Shown in pieces: positions 26,368-33,211 of a stretch of 64,000 nucleotides of DNA (the stretch's first letter is position 1; each line of letters starts with the position of its first letter). The DNA comes from Bacteriovorax stolpii (lineage in GTDB: Bacteria; Bdellovibrionota; Bacteriovoracia; Bacteriovoracales; Bacteriovoracaceae). The position numbers were made by a program, and so were the translations under genes. The notes below the pieces were generated by a model. The model saw only the letters and a program-made list of their open reading frames with translations, did no database searches and was not told the DNA's origin. The stretch is from contig CAMDQH010000001.1 in assembly GCA_945905815.1 (NCBI GenBank), positions 62,001 to 126,000 on the forward strand, written 5' to 3'.

Positions 26368-26904
26368 ATGGATCCTTATTTAAGACGCAAAGTAATAATT
26401 GACCGGATGAATGAGCTCGAAAGTTCTGGAAAAGACTGTAAGGGCTGCTCTGGTACTTGTTGTACTTATGAAGCCAATTCCATGATGGTGACACCCATCG
26501 AAGCCGTAGAATTAGTTGATTACCTAAAGGCGAAAAATCTTTTTGATAATGAACTCAAAAGTCGACTACTGGTAACAGTTTCTAAATATCGTTTAGATCA
26601 AGCAGTTGGAGATGGAAAACGATCATTTCTACGCAGAACTTATACCTGCCCATTTTTTAATCACAAAGAATTAGGCTGCCCACTTCCAAGAGAAGTTAAA
26701 CCGTTTGGTTGTCTTGCCTTTAATGCTCATGATTTGGAAAAGAAGGCCGGCGAGTTTTGTTTCTCTGAAGAGAAAGTACTACTAGCGAGAGAGGCTGCTT
26801 CTTTAGATGAAGCTGCCTTAAATCAAAAAATTAAAACTGAGAATTCTCTATATTGGGATAAAACGCCTCTTCCATTGGCCCTGTTGGCATTTTTCGAGCC
26901 TTAG
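26368..26904 (+). CDS. YkgJ-family cysteine-cluster protein
   Basis: 178 residues. CKGCSGTCC near residues 24-32, TCPFF and GCPLP in the middle and FGCLAF later form the Cys cluster typical of the YkgJ/CxxCxxCC family, thought to bind iron-sulfur or zinc. Substrate and reaction are unknown. Its last 74 bases overlap the convergent acetyltransferase-like gene, an unusually long overlap. Confidence 0.85.
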   Translation: MDPYLRRKVIIDRMNELESSGKDCKGCSGTCCTYEANSMMVTPIEAVELVDYLKAKNLFDNELKSRLLVTVSKYRLDQAVGDGKRSFLRRTYTCPFFNHKELGCPLPREVKPFGCLAFNAHDLEKKAGEFCFSEEKVLLAREAASLDEAALNQKIKTENSLYWDKTPLPLALLAFFEP

Positions 26905-27655
26905 TATCAGTTATCTTTCTCTTCCATGTTTTTAAAATGTATTTGGGGTAAGAAAATAGACTAATTTTACCAATCTGAAGAACCTCATCACCATTTGTGA
27001 AATTAATCATTTCTTTATAGAAGTTATTCAATTCAACATCTCTGTGATAATAATGTGTGTCTTCTTTGTTTTTTTCAAACATTGTTCCAGTGACACTCTT
27101 TTCAAAAACAAATTTATCTGGTGAAAATGTAGCATTTTGATTTATGTAAAGTTCATGCCGAAAATTCTGATCGATGAATTTTGCTATTCGAATATGGTGT
27201 TCTGTAGGAAGCTTCATAAAGGGTGAAGGGTAAACATCTTCAAAATGCATTGCGACGTTACCTAAGCTTGAAAGAACACAGGCAACATTACTTATCCATG
27301 CAGGCCTAAAGAGAGAATATCGCAAGAGGTAAGTCGTAATAACCTTGCTTGTCAACTTGTGCGTTAAGCCTAAGCCTCTAGATCGAGGACTAACGCAAGT
27401 TAAACCCAAGTGAAGAATCTTTCCTTCTTTATCAGCATCCAGAATGTAAGAAGAACAGAACCCATTCATTCGATTAGTTTCGTCTCTTGAGACTGCTATA
27501 ATAAGTCGATCGTATTCTGATCTTTTTCCTGATAGGCACTGATAGTCTGGAATATCTTCCAGACACTCTTTAGCGATCTCAAGAATTTCCTGATGAAGTT
27601 TTTCCAGCTCAGTCTGGGGTAAATTGATACCAGGTTTATTATAAATCTCGATCAT
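26831..27655 (-). CDS. acetyltransferase-like protein, last gene of the lux-type operon
   Basis: 274 residues. The first half resembles a GNAT acyltransferase: FCSSYILDADKEGKILHLGL, then TCVSPRSRGLGLTHKLTSKV, where RSRGLG sits where the acetyl-CoA loop (R/QxxGxG/A) is expected. The second half is not recognised. The start ATG overlaps the stop of the PlsC-like gene by four bases, so it is translationally coupled in the operon. It may transfer an acyl or acetyl group in the pathway encoded upstream; no substrate can be read. Confidence 0.65.
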   Translation of the reverse strand: MIEIYNKPGINLPQTELEKLHQEILEIAKECLEDIPDYQCLSGKRSEYDRLIIAVSRDETNRMNGFCSSYILDADKEGKILHLGLTCVSPRSRGLGLTHKLTSKVITTYLLRYSLFRPAWISNVACVLSSLGNVAMHFEDVYPSPFMKLPTEHHIRIAKFIDQNFRHELYINQNATFSPDKFVFEKSVTGTMFEKNKEDTHYYHRDVELNNFYKEMINFTNGDEVLQIGKISLFSYPKYILKTWKRKITDTKARKMPTGPMEEAFYPNIENSQF

Positions 27656-28440
27656 AAAACCTCCATGGCAAGATATGAAAACCCTTTATAATTTGAATTC
27701 ACAAGGTGACGACTTTTCAGCGCAAGTTCAATTGAAGATAAAATTTCGGGAGCAAATGGTTCCGAAACATTAATCTCAACTAATATTTTCTTATGACTTA
27801 ACACTTTCAAAAAGTGACTAAAAAAAGTCATATCCCCATACCAGCAAACTATGTCCCTATTCAGTCTGTTAATTGCTTTGCCTTCGATTTCAAGATAGTT
27901 AATTGTTATAGGGAGGATTTTCTTTTGAGTTGCAATTGACGCTTCAAAAAGTGGTCTGCGAAACCGGAAAATCTCTTCTCCATTCGTTGATGTCGCTTCT
28001 GGGAAAAAAATTACGTTCATTCCCTCAGACAAGGCAGTTCTAATTTCTACAATTTCTAGTTTTAGATTTTTCCTATTATTGCGATCAACAAAGAGACAAC
28101 CTGCCAAACGAGTCAAATGTCCTAAGAAAGGAGTCTTTTTGACATCTGTTGATGTCACAAAACAAGAAGGGAATTTTGCAGCAAGTATAATAACATCTAA
28201 GTATGAAAGATGGTTTGAAACGATCAGATAGTTATCATTATTAATAAATGTATTTGGAATTTTATATTCAACGACTATATTTAAAACTTTAAGCAAAAAG
28301 CGAGAGGTCGTAGAAACAATTATTACTAAGTTTTTGCGCGCAAATGATTTAATGATGATCAAAAAGGGAAAAAACGGAATGCTTATTAGCATAAAAGTGG
28401 TTATGACAAAAAAGAATGCACATAATTTAAAAAATTTCAT
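27652..28440 (-). CDS. PlsC-like 1-acylglycerol-phosphate acyltransferase
   Basis: 262 residues. An N-terminal membrane helix (CAFFFVITTFMLISIPFFPF) is followed by the acyltransferase motif I NHLSYLD (NHxxxxD), the middle FVDRNNR motif and FFPEATSTNGEE (motif III FPEGT-like). Enzymes with this fold pass acyl chains to lysophosphatidate or related acceptors at the inner membrane. It lies 82 bases after the LuxC fusion gene and overlaps the next gene by four. It may be a specialised acyltransferase rather than the main plsC; a second PlsC-like gene occurs at 53819. Confidence 0.85.
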   Translation of the reverse strand: MKFFKLCAFFFVITTFMLISIPFFPFLIIIKSFARKNLVIIVSTTSRFLLKVLNIVVEYKIPNTFINNDNYLIVSNHLSYLDVIILAAKFPSCFVTSTDVKKTPFLGHLTRLAGCLFVDRNNRKNLKLEIVEIRTALSEGMNVIFFPEATSTNGEEIFRFRRPLFEASIATQKKILPITINYLEIEGKAINRLNRDIVCWYGDMTFFSHFLKVLSHKKILVEINVSEPFAPEILSSIELALKSRHLVNSNYKGFSYLAMEVL

Positions 28441-28522
28441 CTAAGAATATGAAAACAGAAGTTTAATACTGGAACAAGTAGGCTCAGCCAAAGCTAACCT
28501 TTTCTTTACACATTCCTGACAA

Positions 28523-30949
28523 TCAATGCCTGCTGTCAACTATTACACTGATTTTGCCAGTACGTGAGTTACGTCTAATTTCACCGTGTGATTTTGCAAC
28601 GATTTTCATGCAAGCTGTGAAGGCTTCAAAAGTAATTGTATCTTTTAGGTCTCTTGAATTGAGAAAAATTTCCTGAAGTAATGCCATTCTATCTAATTCA
28701 AGGCCACCGTGGATCTCATAAGTGAGTTCACAAGTTTCGCGTATTGTGCCTTCATTTTGTTCTTCACTTAGAATAATTTGATAGGACAATATTTCGGGAT
28801 TGAGATTTTTCAAAGATTTTTCTATATCCGTCAAGAGCATACGACAAGACCAGATCTGAATCTGATTATCAATACGACCCAAGAGTTTAAATTTCTTGTC
28901 TTTGCGTCCGCAATTACAGGCATCCTCAATCCATTCAACTCGGTCACCAGTGGCGTAGTTTTTAATGGCCATGGAGTCACGAGTTAAAGAAGAAACAACA
29001 GCTTCACCTTCAATAATCTTCATCTGAATGAGATCAGTAAATAGATGATGCTCACCAGGACCACAATTTAAGCACTGGTAACCAATCACTCCTGCATCTA
29101 CACTTGCATAACCTGCTGAACCAAAATATTCAGTCTTCCATGTTTTCCTTAAAAAATCACGACGAGTTTCAGACATCGCCTCACCAGCATAAAATACTTT
29201 TTTAATTTTGAGATCTATCCCCAAGCCCAATGCCTGCTCAGCATTCATAACGAGTAATGAGGGAATACCCATGACGACATCTGGTTTAAACTTAATTAAA
29301 TAAGTAAGAATATTCTCACTTGGACACAATCCACCAATTGGAAGTTGGATTGCCCCAATTTTTTCAAGGGCGTTCTCAACAGCCAAAAATGATGACCAGA
29401 GATTTCCTGCGACAAATAAATTTGCGACAGTAGTCCCCTTGCTGATTCCTTGTGCCCTAAAGTTATAAGCGAGCATGTCAGTCGTACGATCAAATTCTTC
29501 GTAACTAAAATGCACATACTTTGGATCACCAGTGGTTCCGCCGGATGAAAAGATATAACCTTGGGGATGACGATTTTTTTCGAAATGCTCTTTTAACTTT
29601 GTCGCGGTTTGAAGGTAAGTGTGCTTTTCTCCAAAATCTTGAATGCGGGCCTCGTCACCAATAAAGTTTACGAGTTCTCGTAAAACAAAACGTCCATCAT
29701 GAGGTGCCCCTTCCATTCCCCAGGTGATGGTTCCTAAAGGGGCAAATCTTTTTAGACCTGTCAGAGCAAGAGAATTGAGATAATCAGTTTTTTCAGCATC
29801 GGCAAAAAGATACGAGCAAGATTGAAGATAGTACGAAAAAGGTTCCAAATGATTATAAAGATCACTGGCATCTTTAAAGCGCTTAATAATTAGTGAACGA
29901 GCAAGAGGTGACGGCTTGATGAACCTATTCGATTCTAGGTGAAGAAGATGCTCTTTACCTTCCGAAACTCTACCACCATCCATTAATTCAGAATACAGGC
30001 CACGAAACTTCTCTTTGAGAATCTCGACGGCTTCATCATCAGAAATTTCGCCACGTTTAGGAGAGGCATTAAAAGCAGCATCTAAAGCGGACATAAATTC
30101 AACTTCATCAATCCCTTCTTGGATATACAAATTTTGAGGTGAAGCACAGGCCGACTGATCCCATGGAATAACATCTCTAACGACGGCTTCGGCCACCAAA
30201 GAAAGGAACTTATTATCCAGAGCTTGTTTCGTAATAACCTGAAGAGAAATTTTCGGACCAAAGTCCAGAAGCTTAACATTCTGTGGTAAATCTTTTTGGT
30301 AGCTCTTAATCATTTCCTCGCCGCCCCAAGCGATGATCGTGTTTACTTTAGACTTAATGAAGCTCTCAGTATCAACATCTCCACCTTTCCAGTGAAGAAC
30401 AGCGAATTTATCTGATAGTATTTTTTTTGTATCAAATGATTTAAGTTTTTCAGCAAAAAAAAGTGGAAAGAACTGATTGGAGCTACTGACTTTTAATACT
30501 GATATGTTTTTAGTTAAAAAGCCCATGATAAGGGAATCAATGCTGCTTAAAAAAACATTTCCGGCAGTTACGTGAAGTAAAATGCCTTTTGGAACAGCTT
30601 TTACTAAACCACCAAAATGAGGAAGCTTAGTGAATTGATCTAATACTTTATCATTAGTGAATTCAGCTCTGACTCTGGCCTCAAGACTTTCACGGCTTAA
30701 CAATCGTGGAAGAAGACTAAGTGTTGAGTTAACCTCTTCTTCTGAGAAACCTGACTCTTTAATTAGACGAGGCAGGGCTTCTTTGTAACATTTTGAGTCC
30801 GCTATCCAAAGTTTTGAAAATCCATCCAGAATAGTAATGATCTCTTCGAGTGAAGTTAGTGCAAAAGATTTTTTAGCAAGTGAAATCCCAGACCAATTGT
30901 CCGGTTGTTGCCATTCATCAGATTGAACTTCTTTACCAAACCAATACAT
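28523..30949 (-). CDS. LuxC-type acyl-CoA reductase fused to PaaK-like AMP-forming ligase
   Basis: 808 residues from ATG 30949 (MYWFGKEVQ), preferred because AAGG sits six bases before it and it begins one base after the luxE-like stop. Residues 1-390 are a LuxC domain: PKGILLHVTAGNVFLSSIDS binds the nucleotide and QSACASPQ (265-272) holds the catalytic Cys268 found in LuxC. Residues about 410-808 resemble phenylacetate-CoA ligase/CapK: SSGGTTGDPK (468-477) is the phosphate-binding loop and CNCGRKDKKFKLLGRIDN the C-terminal hinge. LuxC reduces activated fatty acids to aldehydes with NADPH. The fusion of ligase and reductase in one chain is unusual. Confidence 0.85.
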   Translation of the reverse strand: MYWFGKEVQSDEWQQPDNWSGISLAKKSFALTSLEEIITILDGFSKLWIADSKCYKEALPRLIKESGFSEEEVNSTLSLLPRLLSRESLEARVRAEFTNDKVLDQFTKLPHFGGLVKAVPKGILLHVTAGNVFLSSIDSLIMGFLTKNISVLKVSSSNQFFPLFFAEKLKSFDTKKILSDKFAVLHWKGGDVDTESFIKSKVNTIIAWGGEEMIKSYQKDLPQNVKLLDFGPKISLQVITKQALDNKFLSLVAEAVVRDVIPWDQSACASPQNLYIQEGIDEVEFMSALDAAFNASPKRGEISDDEAVEILKEKFRGLYSELMDGGRVSEGKEHLLHLESNRFIKPSPLARSLIIKRFKDASDLYNHLEPFSYYLQSCSYLFADAEKTDYLNSLALTGLKRFAPLGTITWGMEGAPHDGRFVLRELVNFIGDEARIQDFGEKHTYLQTATKLKEHFEKNRHPQGYIFSSGGTTGDPKYVHFSYEEFDRTTDMLAYNFRAQGISKGTTVANLFVAGNLWSSFLAVENALEKIGAIQLPIGGLCPSENILTYLIKFKPDVVMGIPSLLVMNAEQALGLGIDLKIKKVFYAGEAMSETRRDFLRKTWKTEYFGSAGYASVDAGVIGYQCLNCGPGEHHLFTDLIQMKIIEGEAVVSSLTRDSMAIKNYATGDRVEWIEDACNCGRKDKKFKLLGRIDNQIQIWSCRMLLTDIEKSLKNLNPEILSYQIILSEEQNEGTIRETCELTYEIHGGLELDRMALLQEIFLNSRDLKDTITFEAFTACMKIVAKSHGEIRRNSRTGKISVIVDSRH

Positions 30950-30950
30950 A

Positions 30951-32060
30951 TTAAACCTTAAGCAGCTCAAGGGCCTTTAAAGCACACCCTTTATGTTTAC
31001 TAATCCCAGCACGGCCTTCAAGAATTAATGTGTCTCCTTGAATCCCACAAGAACAAGTTCCAACTCTCCCGTAATCAGTCGTCAAAAGACTTGGAGCTGG
31101 ATAACTAAAATTATATGAGCATAAAAAATGCAATAGTCCCTTCTGCCCTTTAGGCAGAAGACTTAGATCTCTTGGAGAGCGGGTGTAGACTCGTGCATAA
31201 TTAGGAATATGAAGATTTCCATGAGCACAATCAACGTAAGGAATTCCGTGTTCTACCATGCCAAATAAATCACGTTGATGTTCAGCGGGAATTCCAAGCC
31301 GTTCCTGAACGAGTTTTCTAAATTCATGTTTAGGTATTTCTTTATCTGCCTTGCCTTTCCATCCACCACCGGTCTGAAGCCAAGAATCTTTTCCCAGGTT
31401 AATTTTAAGATTATTTTTTTCGATAATTTCATATAGCAACGCCGGAAATCCTAAAATACGAGTTGGAATATCCGCTGCTGCAAAACGATTAAGTGTTTCT
31501 AAAACCCCAGTCTCGTTTAACTCAAAATCCTTGATCTCTGCGTTCCATTGGATGGCGTAATAGACTTCGTTCTTTCCTGTAAAATTGGTTAACAATTCAT
31601 CTGTAAAGGCCGTCCCTAAATCATTGGCAACAGCTGGATCGTAAGTGAAGCAGAGATAATTATATTTTCTTGCATCCGCCATCCCCAAGGATTGATGAAT
31701 TGAGAAGGCCAGACGTTTAACATTTTCTAGACTCTTCTGATCAAGGAATTGCTGCGATTTTTGTCCACCCGTACCCGAACTTGTGAGAACTAACTTTAAC
31801 TCATCCCTGGGTACTGAACAAAGCTCATGTTCTTTATACAAATGGACCATTGTTCCTGGAACGTTGGCCAGATCTTCCTCACATTTAATCATATCAGGAT
31901 GAAAACCAAGTTTGTCCCAAAGCTTTCTTGTGAACTCATGTTTTAGATAGTGATGAGAGGCATTCTCTTTAAAACTTCTTAAAAATAAATCTTTGTTGCT
32001 TTGAGAAAAATCAAAAGGGTTAGATTCAAGTAATGTGTCGGTGAAAGGATGAGTGCTCAT
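30951..32060 (-). CDS. LuxE-type acyl-protein synthetase
   Basis: 369 residues, the length of LuxE, which activates fatty acids with ATP and carries the acyl group on a Cys for transfer to LuxC. SSGTGGQKSQ at 94-103 is the P-loop-like motif of the LuxE/PaaK family; LQTGGGWKG, DLFGMVEHGIPYVDC and LLTTDYGRVGTCSCG are conserved LuxE segments, the last with candidate acyl-accepting Cys residues. The ATG overlaps the stop of the GNAT gene by four bases. No luxD thioesterase or luxAB luciferase is nearby. Confidence 0.88.
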   Translation of the reverse strand: MSTHPFTDTLLESNPFDFSQSNKDLFLRSFKENASHHYLKHEFTRKLWDKLGFHPDMIKCEEDLANVPGTMVHLYKEHELCSVPRDELKLVLTSSGTGGQKSQQFLDQKSLENVKRLAFSIHQSLGMADARKYNYLCFTYDPAVANDLGTAFTDELLTNFTGKNEVYYAIQWNAEIKDFELNETGVLETLNRFAAADIPTRILGFPALLYEIIEKNNLKINLGKDSWLQTGGGWKGKADKEIPKHEFRKLVQERLGIPAEHQRDLFGMVEHGIPYVDCAHGNLHIPNYARVYTRSPRDLSLLPKGQKGLLHFLCSYNFSYPAPSLLTTDYGRVGTCSCGIQGDTLILEGRAGISKHKGCALKALELLKV

Positions 32061-33211
32061 ACCTCAAGGAGTTTTGGGTTTAGTGCCATACTCTTCCAGG
32101 CCTTAAAATATTCTTCTAGATAAACCTGATTAAGCCCCTTGAGTTTTACATTCTGGAAATCAAAAACTTCGAATGAACGACTTAATACTAAAAAATCATA
32201 ACGCTTATTATTCACTTTTTGAAATGCAGGAAAAAAGCCACAAGGAATGAATTTTGCTTTCATGATACTTTCAAGAATTTTAGGCCGGTCCGCTCTTACA
32301 ATGGCCTCAATATATCGGGCCCCAGCATCTCGAAGAAGTTTATTCGTTCTTAAAAATAGCTCTGTGAAGTCAAGATTGCTCGGCATTTTTCCGCCAATGA
32401 TTACACAGTATCCATCGATGGGAGACAAATGACAAAAAAGTTCAACACTTTGATCAGGAGTAACGATCATCAGGTTAGGCTGATGAAAGGGAAAAAATTC
32501 AAACTCTAATTTTTTATCTGCTTTCAAACTTGCATATCTAAAAGCTACAAATTTTGGAGACTGAAGAATTTCGAGTTCTCCAGGTATTTTTAATTCTTTG
32601 CTCGGTTTTTCTGGGACGATTGATTCCATTTCGCCCAGTCCAACTTCTGAAGCAACAACTTTGTAGAGTGATTCCAATTTAAAATGAAGCTTGTAGTCCG
32701 AGTAACGTTTTTCAAGTGCTTGCGGAGTGATGATGGCAGCTAAACAGTGGGTCTCGTAATCATTTGTACGGTGAGCGTTTGGAAAAATTCCAATTTTCTT
32801 GAAACCTAACTTTTCCGTAAGTGTCTGGGCCGCTTCGTTTACTGTTCTTGTAGTGGAATAGATAACATCTACGCCAGTTGTATTTTTTTTCAAATAATCG
32901 ATGGCAAACGCCAGCAATTCTTCCATGACTTTTTGACCGCGAAATTCAGTACGTACAACTGCGCCAAAAGCTTTTGCGAAGAGATTTTCTTCATCATAGC
33001 TGGCAAGCACTGAAGCAATAATCATCCCTTTTTCATTTTTACGGATAAACCAAAAACCTTCATGAGAACAAATAAAATTCTTGATCAAAGAAAAATCTTT
33101 CATCAAAGGGTCCGGATAGGTTCCCTGATATATATCAAAGTATAGTTGCGATATCTGGAAGATATCACTTTCTGTGGCCAGTCGTTGTTCCATGAGCTTC
33201 TTATACCCCAT
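32057..33211 (-). CDS. GNAT-family acyltransferase, first gene of the lux-type operon
   Basis: 384 residues. The first 165 residues are a GNAT domain: RLATESDIFQISQLYFDIYQ opens it, VVRTEFRGQKVMEELLAFAI contains the acetyl-CoA loop, and VNEAAQTLTEKLGFKKIG is the terminal beta-bulge motif. The C-terminal 200 residues form a second domain that may be a degenerate GNAT repeat (LRDAGARYIEAIVRADRPKI). Overlap with the luxE-like gene shows coupled translation. The acceptor is unknown; acylation of an amine or amino acid is one possibility. Confidence 0.75.
   Translation of the reverse strand: MGYKKLMEQRLATESDIFQISQLYFDIYQGTYPDPLMKDFSLIKNFICSHEGFWFIRKNEKGMIIASVLASYDEENLFAKAFGAVVRTEFRGQKVMEELLAFAIDYLKKNTTGVDVIYSTTRTVNEAAQTLTEKLGFKKIGIFPNAHRTNDYETHCLAAIITPQALEKRYSDYKLHFKLESLYKVVASEVGLGEMESIVPEKPSKELKIPGELEILQSPKFVAFRYASLKADKKLEFEFFPFHQPNLMIVTPDQSVELFCHLSPIDGYCVIIGGKMPSNLDFTELFLRTNKLLRDAGARYIEAIVRADRPKILESIMKAKFIPCGFFPAFQKVNNKRYDFLVLSRSFEVFDFQNVKLKGLNQVYLEEYFKAWKSMALNPKLLEV

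Follow-up and report, generated by a model that had tools for sequence, protein, structure and literature searches.

What would lux-type enzymes do in a bacterium whose genome yields no luciferase-family gene? This question is raised by a minus-strand locus at positions 26831-33211 of a 64,000-nucleotide stretch of Bacteriovorax stolpii DNA (contig CAMDQH010000001.1, positions 62,001 to 126,000; hereafter the window), in which a LuxE-type acyl-protein synthetase precedes a LuxC-type reductase fused to a PaaK-type ligase. The original prediction, made from the letters of the window alone, described five genes here as a fatty-acyl reduction operon without luciferase, and our analysis supports its central element, a LuxE/LuxC-type reduction operon that is not luminous and whose LuxC-PaaK fusion is intact. 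The unit comprises three genes, GNAT-LuxE-LuxC.PaaK, and we think it more likely than not that LuxE and LuxC act as a carboxylic acid reductase, with PaaK and GNAT making or modifying the substrate and a small, often exported metabolite as the result.

An intact LuxE and an intact LuxC-PaaK fusion

The core of the locus carries the following features:

32057..33211, minus strand: GNAT384, core gene 1, with an N-terminal GNAT domain (PF00583, E 9e-11) and a conserved C-terminal domain
30951..32060, minus strand: LuxE-type acyl-protein synthetase (PF04443, E 1e-36; 7xc6 alignment; invariant loops)
31755..31784, minus strand: ATP loop of LuxE, TSSGTGGQKS, read from the sequence and invariant in 18 orthologs
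30984..30986, minus strand: LuxE Cys359 (KGCAL), the predicted acyl-carrying cysteine, aligned with KGCSL of 7xc6 LuxE and invariant
28523..30949, minus strand: LuxC.PaaK fusion, 808 residues (PF05893, E 1e-69; PaaK models, AlphaFold2, Foldseek)
29648..30949, minus strand: LuxC domain, residues 1-434 (family profile, 7xc6 alignment, Foldseek)
30146..30148, minus strand: catalytic Cys268 of LuxC (QSACASPQ), from the 7xc6 alignment and invariance in 48 fusions
28526..29623, minus strand: PaaK-type ligase domain, residues 443-808, N-terminal part shortened (family profiles, alignments)
29522..29548, minus strand: ligase loop SSGGTTGDP, read from the sequence and conserved
28553..28555, minus strand: ligase Lys799 (RTGK), invariant in 48 fusions

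Both lux-type enzymes align with the LuxC-LuxE fatty acid reductase of Photobacterium phosphoreum (7xc6): LuxE over residues 7-363 with chain E, including the TSSGTGG loop, the TGGGWK motif and the acyl-carrying cysteine (KGCAL aligned with KGCSL), and the LuxC domain with chain A, including the catalytic cysteine. Residues 466-732 of the fusion align with PaaK1 (PDB 2y27, E 6e-14), and the fused ligase also matches the paak_haloarch model (E 1e-24). Across an alignment of 48 fusions that reaches down to 23% identity with the window protein, Gln265, Cys268, Gly470, Gly471, Gly668, Asp669, Gly691, Arg692 and Lys799 are invariant. An AlphaFold2 model of the whole fusion, computed from a 48-sequence input, had a mean predicted local distance difference test score of 90.5 and a predicted template modelling score of 0.77, and its best solved matches in Foldseek were LuxC (7xc6_A) and PaaK-type ligases. 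Although the fused ligase is without much of the ~90-residue N-terminal part of stand-alone PaaK, it is still well modelled; in the window lineage the linker before the ligase loop is also shorter than in full-length fusions.

Pairwise ratios of nonsynonymous to synonymous substitution rates (dN/dS) among close relatives, excluding pairs with saturated dS, were 0.04-0.14 for the LuxC and PaaK domains, 0.05 for LuxE and 0.03 for GNAT. Because the key residues are invariant and dN/dS is low, the sequences indicate that neither domain of the fusion is decaying and that both are under purifying selection. The predicted intactness of the LuxC cysteine and of the LuxE and ligase loops is borne out by the alignments and by invariance, and an inactive LuxC, named in advance as a finding that would tell against the operon, was not encountered in any of the 48 fusions.

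At the level of families the assignments are clear. The LuxC domain scores 235.6 bits on PF05893 (cut-off 21) with its catalytic cysteine intact, LuxE scores 126.8 bits on PF04443 (cut-off 24.9) with ATP loop and acyl-carrying cysteine, and the fused ligase has an ANL fold with ATP loop, GD, GR and C-terminal lysine. The equivalog cut-offs are not reached: 129.7 of 750 bits for LuxC (NF052251, long-chain fatty acyl-CoA reductase), 85.4 of 550 for LuxE (NF052244, long-chain-fatty-acid-protein ligase) and 68.2 of 646 for PaaK (TIGR02155, phenylacetate-CoA ligase). A profile comparison gave no support to LuxE being a recent copy of PaaK.

A three-gene core in a widespread cassette

The extent of the unit is seen in neighbourhoods within the genus. 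Nearly all sampled genomes of the window's genus contain the fusion, and same-genus genomes keep the order GNAT384-LuxE-fusion between an AlkB-like gene and the convergent gene at 26368-26904, so that gene order in relatives, proposed at the outset as a check, holds for these three genes. Two further genes follow in the window:

27652..28440, minus strand: PlsC-type acyltransferase (PF01553, E 1e-21), a lineage-specific add-on
26831..27655, minus strand: AT274, unassigned, its GNAT match very weak (E 0.04) and under the cut-off; a lineage-specific add-on

These two were found at the locus in three close genomes only, those of the window, G021 and G019; in other same-genus genomes their space is taken up by unrelated genes or is missing, with the fusion directly against the convergent gene. 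The unit is the three-gene core, and the five-gene operon of the original prediction was rejected as a functional unit because PlsC and AT274 are confined to this small group.

All five genes do lie on the strand, in the place and in the order first described, and Pfam and NCBIfam models confirmed the families of GNAT, LuxE, LuxC-PaaK and PlsC; for AT274 the acetyltransferase-like reading finds at most a very weak GNAT similarity. Tight packing likewise proved true of the four-base overlaps in the GNAT384/LuxE and PlsC/AT274 pairs and of the single base between the LuxE stop and the fusion ATG, and not of the fusion and PlsC, which are 82 bases apart. The 3' end of AT274 overlaps the convergent gene by 74 bases. 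Since orthologs of the fusion share the methionine at 30949, there is no need for the longer frame that opens with TTG 30970, and we place the start at ATG 30949; for GNAT384 the likely start is the seventh codon (33193), as in most orthologs.

The nearest NCBIfam model to PlsC is OlsA, whose cut-off it misses (116.8 of 300 bits). AT274 matched no Pfam or NCBIfam family above cut-off and a PDB search gave no useful match; with no family match for AT274, PlsC is left without an OlsB partner. Ornithine-lipid synthesis by the two was rejected on these grounds. At other loci (L037-L040, L044, L046) the corresponding space, between the fusion and the homolog of the 26368-26904 gene, recurrently holds a ~370-residue secreted protein with an HEARHSDG motif, possibly a metallopeptidase, and after it a lipoprotein-like partner of ~178 residues.

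The core occurs throughout the family Bacteriovoracaceae and in other families of Bdellovibrionota, and GNAT-LuxE-LuxC.PaaK recurs across many genera and flanking contexts, often with four-base overlaps. A fusion profile matched 79 of 129 genomes (26 of 48 genera) in a sample of the class and 106 of 369 genomes (46 of 182 genera) in a sample of the phylum, counts that may take in genomes matching by single domains only. LuxE stands directly upstream of the fusion at 58 of 61 loci, with a GNAT nearby at 55, a stand-alone PaaK at 27 and a major facilitator superfamily (MFS) gene at 15; several of the exceptions are loci cut by contig ends, and the Salmonella GNAT is more distant. Because about 60 loci share this order over many different flanks and dN/dS is low, the recurrence exceeds chance.

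Stand-alone PaaK and the fused domain belong to one subfamily, and the cassette MFS protein resembles EntS/MefA-type exporters. Judged by gene content, the window appears to hold the reduced, three-gene form of a cassette that can be written (MFS exporter)-GNAT-LuxE-LuxC.PaaK-(PaaK). Its fused and stand-alone ligases share fold and catalytic residues with PaaK-type ligases (2y27, 4r1l, NatL2 6siw, ClxA 9s3l), whereas fusion to LuxC, the shortened N-terminal part in the window lineage and scores far under PaaK equivalog cut-offs set them apart. GNAT384 is 62-83% identical to 16 same-genus orthologs and has homologs of equal length in Streptomyces cassettes; its interpretation as a tandem GNAT was abandoned, an internal duplication being unsupported (hhalign probability 11%).

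Several loci in the survey showed further features. Cassettes L105, L106 and L109 have a ~485-residue GNAT whose N-terminal region looks, by eye and with no Pfam match, like an RsbW-type HATPase, and in L106 an RsbU-like phosphatase gene lies 3' of it. L116 (5398-11871) carries twice a set made up of a PaaK-like ligase, an unassigned protein of ~226 residues and a diiron protein of haem-oxygenase-like type (PF14518); L103 (158-1464) belongs to the same recurrent Bdellovibrionota set of ~226-residue protein and PF14518. A same-genus genome has, on a contig of 65% GC (L051, G020:C433), a second LuxC.PaaK fusion that is divergent and accompanied by MFS and GNAT; contamination or recent transfer is the probable source.

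Plasmid-borne cassettes and unfused pairs

Outside Bdellovibrionota, where sampling covered plasmids, Streptomyces plasmids carry PaaK-MFS-GNAT-LuxE-LuxC.PaaK, and two conjugative IncF plasmids of Salmonella enterica (L091, CP053580.1; L095, CP054717.1) carry LuxE-LuxC.PaaK-PaaK. One of the latter has an annotated 294-residue GNAT behind PaaK that differs from the cassette GNAT. The E. coli genomes searched contained no match to the Salmonella operon, and the viral contigs searched gave no match. Both Salmonella cassettes adjoin IS3-type transposase genes. In the LuxE tree, cassette LuxE forms one clade (95/98), separate from the LuxE of lux systems and of glycan clusters; because the Salmonella and Streptomyces sequences nest inside it, horizontal transfer of the cassette is the simplest reading of the tree.

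Two unfused LuxE-LuxC pairs also fall inside the cassette clades of the LuxE and LuxC trees. On a Chloroflexota plasmid (L097), LuxE directly precedes an unfused LuxC, and neither PaaK nor GNAT is present. On Streptomyces europaeiscabiei plasmid NZ_CP109155.1 (L096, 1992-10692), LuxE and an unfused LuxC, sister to the Streptomyces cassette sequences in both trees, sit in a cluster resembling those for ribosomally synthesized and post-translationally modified peptides (RiPPs), where YcaO and an MbnB/TglH-like enzyme replace PaaK and GNAT. Next to the pair lies an open frame of 53 residues that contains four FPFR repeats and is a possible precursor peptide; the C-terminus of a peptide may be what LuxE and LuxC reduce here. 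A LuxE homolog on Priestia megaterium plasmid NZ_CP085443.1 (L098) lies near a carrier protein, AMP-ligase genes, an IscU-like scaffold and a cysteine desulfurase.

What the cassette may make

The chemistry of LuxC and LuxE is known mainly from light production: an acid is adenylated and held as an acyl thioester on LuxE, then transferred to the LuxC cysteine and reduced with NAD(P)H to an aldehyde. Given the homology and the intact residues, cassette LuxE would adenylate a carboxylic acid and hold the acyl group on Cys359; by analogy with LuxC/LuxE chemistry the group would pass to Cys268 of LuxC for NAD(P)H-dependent reduction to an aldehyde. Because LuxE stays in front of LuxC where PaaK and GNAT are absent, as in the Chloroflexota pair and the RiPP-like cluster, LuxE appears to be the reduction partner of LuxC, with PaaK and GNAT separable from it. 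More tentatively, the PaaK domain might activate a carboxylate in a separate step on the acid substrate, and the GNAT might join an acyl group to an amine, so making or modifying the acid. The likely product would be a small aldehyde or a derivative, perhaps an N-acyl amino aldehyde, exported in many relatives by the adjoining MFS pump. In the single RiPP-like cluster, by contrast with the cassette, the substrate may be a ribosomal peptide and PaaK and GNAT dispensable. Since relatives carry an MFS gene and a second ligase, and related LuxE and LuxC sit in the RiPP-like cluster, we infer that the substrates are no less likely to be small or peptidic acids than fatty acids.

Several points weigh against this account. 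A single RiPP-like cluster and the Chloroflexota pair account for most of what suggests PaaK as a substrate maker. The window lineage has neither an MFS gene nor a stand-alone PaaK beside the core, and its product could differ or stay unexported. Residue 94 of the window GNAT384 is a lysine (RGQKVM), whereas the motif-A glycine (RGQGIM) stands at this position in no fewer than 90% of orthologs from the genus; the change may mean a weaker enzyme or a local variant, and the AlphaFold2 model of the C-terminal half of GNAT384 is poor and its fold unassigned.

Among the alternatives, the fatty-acid route first suggested for this locus would have LuxE and LuxC reduce a long-chain acid, with PlsC and the acetyltransferases turning the product into a wax, an ether lipid or an N-acyl lipid. 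True LuxC and LuxE do use fatty acids and a PlsC-type acyltransferase adjoins the fusion; yet the core is kept without PlsC and AT274, the cassette LuxE branch is distinct from that of lux LuxE, relatives have an exporter, and related LuxE and LuxC occur in the RiPP-like cluster. We consider this route unlikely. Nothing was found showing a fatty-acid substrate, and a wax or ether lipid, though possible, gains no specific support, because PlsC is an add-on; an N-acyl product is one of the live options. A descent from, or a part in, bioluminescence was rejected and is almost certainly wrong: LuxC and LuxE are homologous to the lux enzymes, and the 7xc6 system and the cassette share both enzymes as adjacent genes, the LuxC cysteine, and the acyl-carrying cysteine and ATP loops of LuxE, but the cassette differs in its separate LuxE branch, its C-terminal PaaK on LuxC and its co-encoded GNAT (in relatives also PaaK and MFS), and neither the fusion nor the gene order is found in lux operons. 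The luciferase family PF00296 had no match in the window's genome, in a search whose control was positive in 10 of 14 genomes, which upholds the predicted absence of luxA and luxB and leaves no luciferase elsewhere to account for the operon; luxD (PF02273) was unmatched as well, in a separate search in which no positive control gave a match.

That the fusion might be self-contained, PaaK adenylating an acid and the attached LuxC reducing it while LuxE plays an accessory part or activates another acid, has in its favour that ligase and reductase form a single chain whose two active sites are invariant. A parallel exists in phenazine synthesis, where in the exported-antibiotic pathway to griseoluteic acid the AMP ligase gene ehpF adjoins the aldehyde-dehydrogenase-type gene ehpG, a pair we take to act as a carboxylate reductase; GriC and GriD of grixazone synthesis are likewise a ligase beside an aldehyde-dehydrogenase-like enzyme. 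The Ehp pathway differs in being aromatic, in its separate proteins and in having no cassette-type LuxE or GNAT. LuxE, however, is the most constant neighbour of the fusion, is kept with LuxC after PaaK loss and conserves its acyl-carrying cysteine, and a self-contained reductase seems to us about as improbable as the fatty-acid route. Decoration of a surface sugar with a small hydroxy- or acyl group is less probable again. LuxE/LuxC pairs are known from flagellar-glycan and tetronate loci, non-luminous genes of this type having been described in Aeromonas flagellar glycan islands (PMC7874193) and V. cholerae RfbN having been noted as a non-luminous case (PMC4772473). Those glycan loci, in contrast, combine carrier protein, short-chain dehydrogenase/reductase, AMP ligase and glycosyltransferases with an unfused LuxC, against GNAT, PaaK and fused LuxC in the cassette; their LuxE and LuxC lie on separate branches in both trees, and no set of carrier-protein, dehydrogenase and recurrent sugar genes was found in the cassette neighbourhoods. 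As far as we could see, neither these glycan loci nor the phenazine and grixazone pairs have a LuxC-PaaK fusion or the gene set of the cassette.

Returning to the carboxylic acid reductase, a broader proposal, which we put forward tentatively and with well under even confidence, is that the cassettes form a hitherto unrecognised class of compact biosynthetic cluster free of nonribosomal peptide synthetases and polyketide synthases. PaaK and GNAT would build an N-acyl (amino) acid, which LuxE and LuxC would convert to an exported aldehyde acting as a signal, inhibitor or antibiotic; the class would be mobile between predatory-type Bdellovibrionota, actinomycetes and enterobacterial plasmids, with one branch reused on ribosomal peptides. 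Searching open full-text papers turned up no description of a LuxC-PaaK fusion, subscription papers lying outside this coverage, and LuxE/LuxC carboxylate reduction is placed here in a widely shared and apparently undescribed cassette. The cassette spans three phyla, and in one family, of predatory type, most of the genomes sampled have kept it. It offers a defined operon that points to unknown small molecules from relatives of bacterial predators, and the RiPP-like cluster nested within its clades provides an independent handle on the substrates of LuxE/LuxC reduction.

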